The translations under genes and the position numbers were made by a program. Positions 2,942 to 4,216 of a stretch of DNA of 35,727 nucleotides are shown piece after piece. The stretch's first letter is position 1, and the number at the start of each line of letters is the position of its first letter. The stretch is from Candidatus Peregrinibacteria bacterium (lineage in GTDB: Bacteria; Patescibacteriota; Gracilibacteria; UM-FILTER-43-11): assembly GCA_016934215.1 (NCBI GenBank), contig JAFGTE010000023.1, forward strand, positions 1 through 35,727. The letters are read 5' to 3'. The notes beneath the pieces are model-generated. The model ran no database searches and was not told where the DNA came from. It was given only the letters and a program-made list of their open reading frames with translations.

Positions 2942-4216
2942 TCAGAAAAAACTCAGAATAACGGTTCCCATCAGAATCAAGTAGACCGCGAAGGCGTGCA
3001 TAGTGTGTTTCTGGAGGTATTTGAGCAGCAGGTATATAGCCAGAAAGCTGGTAACAAAAGAAGTGAGCGTGCCCAGCACAATATATTGAGTGTGTGGCAA
3101 TGGGGGGCCGCTTTGAAGTGATATTAATGCGTATACATTAGCCGCCAGAATAGCGATTCCTCCCAGCATGAAACTAAAACGTGCCGCGACTTCACGTTTT
3201 AAACCAAGACCGGCTCCTGTCGCAATTGTTATTCCTGCCCGGGAGATGCCTGGAATCAAGGCCAGTGCCTGCGCCATGCCGATCCATATACTTTTTTTAA
3301 GTCCCACTGATTCTGTATGGCTCTTTTTACCTTTCCAGGCGGCGTAAAAATAGAAAAGACCGATCAGAATGAAAAAGATAGCGACGGAATTCAGTGTGCG
3401 CATATTATCAGAAATGTAGCTGCCAAAAATGAGTCCGACAATGATGGCAGGAATGGTTCCGATAATCAATTTGAAGGCCATGCTTTGTATGTTCAGGTGG
3501 AAATTTCTGATCATCAGCCAGAGTTCTTTAAACACACAAAACCAGTCCTTCCAGAAGTAAATCAAAATTGCAGCCAGTGAACCGCCGTGCAAGAAGATGT
3601 CAAAAGTAATGAGCTCGCTGGCCGGAATCGGCACTTTTAAGAAATGTTCCATCAGAACCAGATGACCTGAACTGGAAATAGGCAAAAATTCGGTAATGCC
3701 CTGGAGCCCTCCCAGAACAAGTGCACTGGTGTCAGCGGCCATGTCGAATTTCATTTCAAAAAGCTTAGCTCCTGCATAGGCGGTGAGCATATAACGGGGC
3801 ATGCGACCAATAAATGCACCCAGCATAAAACGCCCGAAAGGCATTTCAAAAATTCCGGCAGTCCAGGTGACGACTTTAAATGGAATTGGAGTAAGTCCTG
3901 CCAGAATTACCCCCCAAATACCCCATTTTCTGATATAAGTTTCACCTTTAGCTACTTTGTTTTTGCCGACCAGCCACTCCAGAGCGGGATGGCCAAGCCA
4001 TTTGCCCAGAGTGTAACCAATTGCAGCACCCAGCATCGTCGCTACGAATACCAGCATCATCAGCGTGTTATAGGTAAGCCCATGATCGATGGCAAATCCC
4101 AAAAAAACGTCCACGGGAACCGGGAAAATAAACTGTTCCATAGCGGTTAGAAGGAACATTCCCAGATAGCCGTACTGCTGAATGACCGACTCGACAAGGA
4201 CCATCAGAGTTTCCAT
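2942..4216 (-). CDS. uppP: DedA/YqaA-type (VTT) domain fused to undecaprenyl-diphosphatase UppP
   Basis: One uninterrupted 424-residue frame holds two membrane enzyme families. Residues 1-155 are a VTT/SNARE-associated domain of the YqaA/DedA type: an acidic residue before a Pro-rich re-entrant segment (E27, then FPVPVDVF), a second half LTPIPFKVVTWTAG, and the paired arginines of GRMPRY (R138, R141). Residues 165-424 are a complete UppP/BacA: motif 1 Q172-x3-E176 followed by FLPISSSGHL (H185), and motif 2 PGISRAG with R326, matching the known catalytic Glu, His and Arg. UppP dephosphorylates C55-PP to C55-P at the outer membrane face; VTT-family proteins have been reported to return C55-P inward. 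Internal ATGs at residues 155 and 159 (3742) could also yield free UppP. It lies 13 bp downstream of the CNNM gene. Confidence 0.93.
   Translation of the reverse strand: METLMVLVESVIQQYGYLGMFLLTAMEQFIFPVPVDVFLGFAIDHGLTYNTLMMLVFVATMLGAAIGYTLGKWLGHPALEWLVGKNKVAKGETYIRKWGIWGVILAGLTPIPFKVVTWTAGIFEMPFGRFMLGAFIGRMPRYMLTAYAGAKLFEMKFDMAADTSALVLGGLQGITEFLPISSSGHLVLMEHFLKVPIPASELITFDIFLHGGSLAAILIYFWKDWFCVFKELWLMIRNFHLNIQSMAFKLIIGTIPAIIVGLIFGSYISDNMRTLNSVAIFFILIGLFYFYAAWKGKKSHTESVGLKKSIWIGMAQALALIPGISRAGITIATGAGLGLKREVAARFSFMLGGIAILAANVYALISLQSGPPLPHTQYIVLGTLTSFVTSFLAIYLLLKYLQKHTMHAFAVYLILMGTVILSFF

Follow-up and report, generated by a model that had tools for sequence, protein, structure and literature searches.

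Features of the locus

The window analysed here is the whole stretch of 35,727 nucleotides from contig JAFGTE010000023.1 of a Candidatus Peregrinibacteria bacterium (assembly GCA_016934215.1), whose genome is a 1.01 Mb draft in 34 contigs and 95.8% complete. On its minus strand lies an open reading frame in which a VTT domain of the DedA superfamily is followed by a UppP (BacA) domain, as had been claimed in an earlier note made from the sequence alone. The features are given below, with residues counted along the fusion protein.

2942–4216, minus strand: VTT-UppP fusion gene, 424 aa, one continuous frame with ATG start at 4216 and TGA stop at 2942–2944
3755–4216, minus strand: VTT (DedA-superfamily) domain, residues 1–154 (Pfam PF09335; AlphaFold helices 2–154)
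4109–4138, minus strand: first re-entrant tip E27...D36 (EQFIFPVPVD); by alignment E27 is invariant and D36 is D or E in 17 homologues
3875–3892, minus strand: second re-entrant tip TPIPFK, residues 109–114; by alignment K114 stands close to R136 of COG0586 proteins without coinciding with it
3791–3808, minus strand: GRMPRY, residues 137–142; the pattern is common with YqaA (GKALRY) by alignment
3737–3754, minus strand: linker, residues 155–160, predicted to be periplasmic (alignment, AlphaFold, charge counts)
2945–3736, minus strand: complete UppP/BacA domain, residues 161–424 (PF02673; E. coli UppP structures by sequence and by fold)
3662–3703, minus strand: UppP catalytic motif QGITEFLPISSSGH, residues 172–185; S182 corresponds to the nucleophile S27 of E. 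coli UppP (role from PMC5861054)
3239–3241, minus strand: R326, which aligns with R174 of E. coli UppP, a residue that binds pyrophosphate (PMC5861054)
4230–5465, minus strand: CNNM/CorC-type divalent-cation transporter gene (Pfam), 13 nt upstream of the fusion

Both domains scored above their Pfam cut-offs, VTT_dom (PF09335) at residues 37–150 (E = 4.5e-18; 66.3 bits against 33.9) and BacA (PF02673) at residues 165–419 (E = 6e-69; 233 bits against 33.4); the second match spans model positions 1–257 of 257, and the UppP domain is complete.

Conservation of the fusion in the family

The family set was of 18 genomes, 17 with UppP, and in all 17 the fusion was found at full length and in an uninterrupted frame, at 48–76% identity and across at least 11 genera. 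These relatives lie on contigs of many independent assemblies from different projects, mostly Candidatus Peregrinibacteria/Patescibacteria MAGs, and a Pfam scan of 10 of them gave the VTT domain above cut-off in every one. The joining of two genes by a frameshift or an assembly error might be imagined for a draft MAG, as other members of the class have the two genes side by side, but the identical in-frame fusion in 17 independent assemblies rules this out and leaves it practically no chance. The earlier note had named a frameshift or separate genes in related genomes, or the lack of a second genome with this architecture, as grounds for abandoning the fusion; what was found is an unbroken frame in 16 other family genomes.

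Most family members keep the junction KFYA(S/T)TEMSA-(I/V/L)-LG-x-(L/F)-QG. Nei-Gojobori values of pN 0.08–0.35 against pS 0.62–0.89 for the VTT half and pN 0.05–0.27 against pS 0.55–0.83 for the UppP half indicate purifying selection on both halves.

The production of free UppP from internal ATG codons at residues 155 and 159 had also been suggested. The two ATGs are in frame and an AGGAG stands upstream of them, but at 14 nt from the first, which is no well-spaced ribosome-binding site, and neither ATG is kept in any of the 16 relatives, most of which have a methionine a few residues further on that is absent in the window gene. An additional free UppP made in this way is therefore very improbable, and the suggestion was dropped.

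A further family genome (G008, 89% complete) has two MraY/WecA-family genes and gave no match to UppP, VTT, PAP2 or DUF368, which is either an assembly gap or a real loss.

The UppP half

A phmmer search against PDB sequences aligned residues 158–420 to E. coli UppP (6cb2, 5oon), and in this alignment E17, E21, S26, S27, H30 and R174 of the E. coli enzyme correspond to Q172, E176, S181, S182, H185 and R326 of the fusion. In E. coli UppP, S27 is the nucleophile, E21 its partner and R174 the pyrophosphate ligand (PMC5861054). The catalytic residues Q172, E176, H185 and R326 are present at the numbering proposed earlier, and together with S181, S182 and S183 they are invariant in 17 homologues and fit the pattern (E/Q)xxxE, SS(S/T)GH and a distal R. 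In the AlphaFold model the UppP half compares with 5oon and 6fmt at TM-scores of 0.81–0.85 of the target and has the inverted-repeat fold of E. coli BacA.

The NCBIfam equivalog cut-offs for UppP were missed (best 207.8 against 284 bits; TIGR00753, 188.5 against 217.5 bits), and by these cut-offs the domain is a divergent member. Its family membership argues strongly that the UppP half is a C55-PP phosphatase.

The VTT half

Translocation of C55-P has been assigned to DedA and DUF368 proteins (PMC9876793; PMC10127716), and E. coli proteins of the YqjA/YghB type require residues E39, D51, R130 and R136 (PMC10127716; PMC7818093). In the alignment the acidic pair E39/D51 of COG0586 proteins corresponds to E27 and D36 of the fused VTT, which are likely to be the equivalent proton-titratable pair. 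The arginine pair R130/R136 of the COG0586 flippases is absent; the second re-entrant tip carries TPIPFK, in which K114 stands one alignment column off R136, and R138 and R141 follow in the next helix. The arginines of GRMPRY, to which the earlier note had drawn attention, proved to be conserved (R138 invariant, R141 almost invariant), and they are likely candidates for phosphate-binding residues.

In the tree the fused VTT is split from the COG0586 and COG0398 references with support 99/95 and falls nearer to E. coli YqaA (COG1238), a placement which carries long-branch warnings for YqaA and depends on a single YqaA reference; it groups with stand-alone VTTs of families f11, f9, f17, f2 and f15. 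The UptA NCBIfam score is 32.6 bits against a cut-off of 300. The arginine pair, the tree position and the UptA cut-off together rule out the identity of a canonical COG0586/UptA flippase, and the domain is not to be filed there, because R130/R136 are absent and it lies outside the COG0586 clade. The COG1238 proteins were judged to be unlikely C55-P flippases as they have no positive residue at the second re-entrant tip (Todor et al., PMC10127716); position 114 is K in 14 and R in 1 of 17 homologues, so that this trait fails in the fused VTT. The VTT domain, proposed in the earlier note as a C55-P flippase, has the acidic pair and lacks the canonical arginines; though outside COG0586/UptA, it may work as those proteins do.

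Structure and topology

The AlphaFold2 model of the fusion was made with 66 alignment rows and has a mean pLDDT of 93.7 with no residue below 70, and its pTM of 0.77 leaves the relative placement of the two domains unsettled. The VTT half is modelled as an amphipathic helix, a re-entrant pair, a transmembrane helix at 49–83, an amphipathic helix at 85–98, a second re-entrant pair and a transmembrane helix at 127–154. This order, an inverted repeat in which a transmembrane helix packs against each of two re-entrant hairpins, is that of the published DedA core (PMC7818093), and a structure search of the PDB matched no solved VTT structure at E <= 0.001.

By this helix order the N and C ends of the VTT domain are on the same side. 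The N-side has 0–2 K+R in the first 50 residues and the side between the transmembrane helices has 6–9 K+R in 57, in every member, so that by the positive-inside rule both ends, and hence the junction, should be periplasmic. Both termini of E. coli UppP are periplasmic (PMC5861054; PMC5852022), and the linker 155–160 is therefore possible without an extra helix. On the AlphaFold model, the charge bias and the published UppP orientation, the two domains are predicted to be compatibly oriented for work on the same periplasmic leaflet; domains facing opposite sides, which had been raised as an objection to the fusion, are not what the predicted topology gives.

The same geometry permits the reverse order, since the C terminus of UppP is also periplasmic. 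The model of a reverse fusion, in which UppP precedes VTT (described below), has a pLDDT of 87.0 and a pTM of 0.63 and contains the corresponding helices. We infer that periplasmic ends common to both domains are why both fusion orders could arise.

Gene complement of the family genomes

Presence and absence of genes were determined by Pfam profile searches. The BacA profile matched a single protein in each of the 17 family genomes, namely the fusion, and none has a separate uppP. The fusion is the only VTT in 5 of the 17 (the genome of the window, G001, G006, G011 and G017); the remaining ones have extra VTT proteins, several of them COG0398-like in the tree, so that the expectation of genomes without separate uppP and dedA genes holds fully for uppP and in part for dedA. 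Within the family DUF368 is confined to one genus (g9) and PAP2 to G015 and G016.

In the genome of the window these searches found no further UppP, VTT, DUF368 or PAP2 gene; the absences are provisional because the draft is 95.8% complete, and they are likely to be real because the relatives agree. The genome has two MraY/WecA-family enzymes, which consume the carrier, and C55-P must therefore be in use.

Association of VTT and uppP beyond the family

The fusion was searched for in the class, a phylum sample, plasmids and a contig scan of close relatives (9 loci). The VTT-UppP order was not found fused in the rest of the class (353 genomes) or outside the family in the 380-genome phylum sample, and the plasmid search gave no convincing fusion; the two matches there with a query coverage above 80% fall on uppP and a P-type ATPase gene. 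The 9 loci of the contig scan are recorded as Patescibacteria, Candidatus Peregrinibacteria or simply bacterium. The taxonomic range of proteins with both domains, as far as these samples reach, is every UppP-bearing genome of the family in this order and one other family in the reverse order.

That other family (f5, same class) has UppP followed by VTT in one frame in five genera (G202, G206, G180, G222 and G246), at loci L043, L046, L047, L048 and L050. Both Pfam domains are over cut-off in 4 of the 5, and the C-terminal part in G246 matches only the purpose-built VTT profiles. In the tree these C-terminal VTTs are on the COG0586 side; they keep the equivalents of E39 and R136 and, as those of D51 and R130 are missing, they too are divergent. 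The VTT domains of the two fusions thus come from different subfamilies, and the fusions arose independently.

Unfused neighbours were also frequent. Families f11, f2 and f15 have, directly upstream of uppP, a VTT gene that belongs to the fused subfamily (173, 131 and 113 bits against the VTT profile of the fusion), with the VTT stop and the uppP start overlapping as ATGA in f2 and f15 and a gap of about 35 nt in f11, and in unfused members of f5 a VTT gene often adjoins uppP. At 18 of 59 unfused loci of the class a VTT gene lies within 1.5 kb of uppP where about 1 would be expected by chance, on our own estimate, which takes a 1.2-Mb genome to have no more than a few VTT genes and is applied to loci that are non-independent and chosen as best hits. 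Three families belonging to other classes (G403, G391 and G434) have uppP followed in frame by VTT with the stop abutting the ATG (TAG/ATG, TAG/ATG and TAA/ATG), at the following positions.

L139, 1518–1523: uppP stop abutting VTT ATG
L140, 1263–1268, minus strand: uppP stop abutting VTT ATG
L141, 1231–1236, minus strand: uppP stop abutting VTT ATG

Judged from these sequences, a single substitution would fuse such pairs. Some other candidates were rejected as fusions: the UppP of G251 has a C-terminal extension of about 190 residues without a Pfam match (L045:1492–2793, plus strand), which is not a VTT domain, and in G176 and G187 the open frame that holds UppP is long because it extends at the 5′ end.

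The fusion and the adjacency show a functional linkage of VTT and UppP and leave the substrate aside. The Rosetta-stone link drawn in the earlier note is borne out by a fusion universal in the family, which is there the only UppP and in five genomes the only VTT, and by the reverse fusion and the adjacent or overlapping pairs elsewhere. Neighbouring genes could also have been fused neutrally in a shrinking genome, the halves acting independently and gaining nothing from being joined. The small size of the genome (1.01 Mb) and the adjacent or overlapping genes of relatives, one mutation from fusion, agree with such compaction, which is also compatible with both halves acting in the C55-P cycle; it is nevertheless improbable, as the fusion has been held through at least 11 genera at 48–76% identity with its junction conserved, and a second fusion in the reversed order with a different VTT subfamily is hard to call an accident.

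Proposed mechanism

We consider it probable that the fusion is a C55-PP phosphatase and a C55-P translocase of the C55-P cycle in one chain. The UppP half would remove a phosphate from C55-PP in a pocket open to the periplasm, and the VTT half would return the C55-P product to the cytoplasmic leaflet, using the proton gradient through proton exchange at E27/D36 and with K114, R138 and R141 holding the phosphate. The gene probably originated when a VTT gene and a uppP gene, adjacent and translationally coupled, were joined. Because the VTT is not a canonical COG0586/UptA protein, C55-P is a substrate that we infer for it with moderate confidence; proton coupling is held with similarly moderate confidence, and a direct hand-over of C55-P between the halves is proposed with low confidence. 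The fuller statement, that a YqaA/COG1238-like VTT flips C55-P by K114, R138 and R141, forms with UppP the sole recycling device and was invented twice in opposite orders, has in our estimation about an even chance.

The points counted against this reading are the missing R130/R136, the tentative YqaA/COG1238 grouping, the low UptA score and the proposal, made from the inverted-repeat fold, that UppP itself may be a flippase (PMC5861054; PMC5852022). All but the UptA score also make up the case for a coupling that is functional only, in which the YqaA-like VTT serves UppP as a scaffold or as a dimerisation or regulatory module, or transports a different lipid, and the carrier returns through UppP or an unrecognised flippase, the more so as COG1238 proteins are deemed improbable C55-P flippases (PMC10127716). 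We regard this as unlikely, though the foremost of the alternatives, as E27/D36, the re-entrant tips and R138 are conserved more strongly than a scaffold requires, the genome has no other recognised translocase, and a COG0586-like VTT has been independently fused to or placed beside UppP in relatives, which argues for the same partner function.

Relation to known fusions and significance

1. Sit et al. (2022) described DUF368-PAP2, PAP2-DUF368, DUF368-BacA and DedA-PAP2 architectures (PMC9876793), and Todor et al. (2023) reported COG0586 domains fused to PAP2 and to rhodanese and found COG1238 proteins to be 99% single-domain (PMC10127716); the mention of DedA-PAP2 fusions in the earlier note was correct, and DUF368-BacA is published likewise. 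Term searches of the main text of openly available papers found no description of a DedA-BacA fusion. What appears new here, on these searches, is the DedA-BacA combination in both orders; the DedA-PAP2, DUF368-PAP2 and DUF368-BacA fusions were known before.

2. The DedA-PAP2 fusions (PMC9876793; PMC10127716) likewise carry a VTT/DedA translocase domain and a C55-PP phosphatase on one polypeptide, but their phosphatase is PAP2, which is unrelated to BacA/UppP, and their DedA part is COG0586 whereas that of the present fusion is YqaA/COG1238-like. The DUF368-BacA fusions (PMC9876793) share the joining of a C55-P translocase domain to a BacA/UppP phosphatase and differ in the translocase, DUF368/PopT, which is of a family other than VTT. 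E. coli UppP/BacA (PDB 5OON, 6CB2) has the full fold, the catalytic set and the periplasmic N terminus in common with the fusion, but it stands alone without a VTT and has E17 where the fusion has Q172. With the COG0586 flippases UptA, YngC, YghB and YqjA the fused VTT shares the core, the two re-entrant hairpins and the acidic pair at the first tip, but it is without R130/R136 and without the flanking N-terminal transmembrane helix and has K114, R138 and R141 instead. YqaA (COG1238) is alike in its short core without flanking transmembrane helices and in the basic-x-x-R-Y motif of the last helix; the VTT here differs in being fused to UppP and in having a lysine at the second re-entrant tip.

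3. Not until 2022–2023 were DedA and DUF368 proteins given the role of bringing C55-P back to the inner leaflet. The only recognised phosphatase and the only recognised translocase candidate of the genome stand here in one protein, which offers a minimal system in which phosphatase-flippase coupling could be tested. Three things make it noteworthy: it is the sole copy, its VTT is of an unexpected kind, and a reverse fusion arose independently. As the fused VTT groups nearer to a subfamily deemed improbable as C55-P flippases, the flippase family would become wider if it were shown to flip C55-P.

Neighbouring genes and other VTT proteins

Downstream of the fusion, at 1524–2867 on the minus strand, the window has a gene of 447 aa with an acidic N-terminal half and one likely transmembrane segment, which matched no Pfam family over cut-off and has no homologue at the family loci compared. 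Of 16 family relatives, 14 have a homologue of the CNNM/CorC gene upstream of the fusion and on its strand, which suggests an operon of a cation transporter and carrier recycling. UppP requires Mg2+ or Ca2+, and through this neighbour a link of the fusion to divalent cations is possible.

Two other VTT architectures were observed during the survey. In G005 a pyridine nucleotide-disulphide oxidoreductase is fused to a VTT domain (L145:390–2471, plus strand), a fusion type previously reported for COG0398, and in G004 a 1113-aa protein (L146:695–4033, minus strand) begins with a domain resembling VTT, which scores under the Pfam cut-off, and continues with S-layer homology domains.
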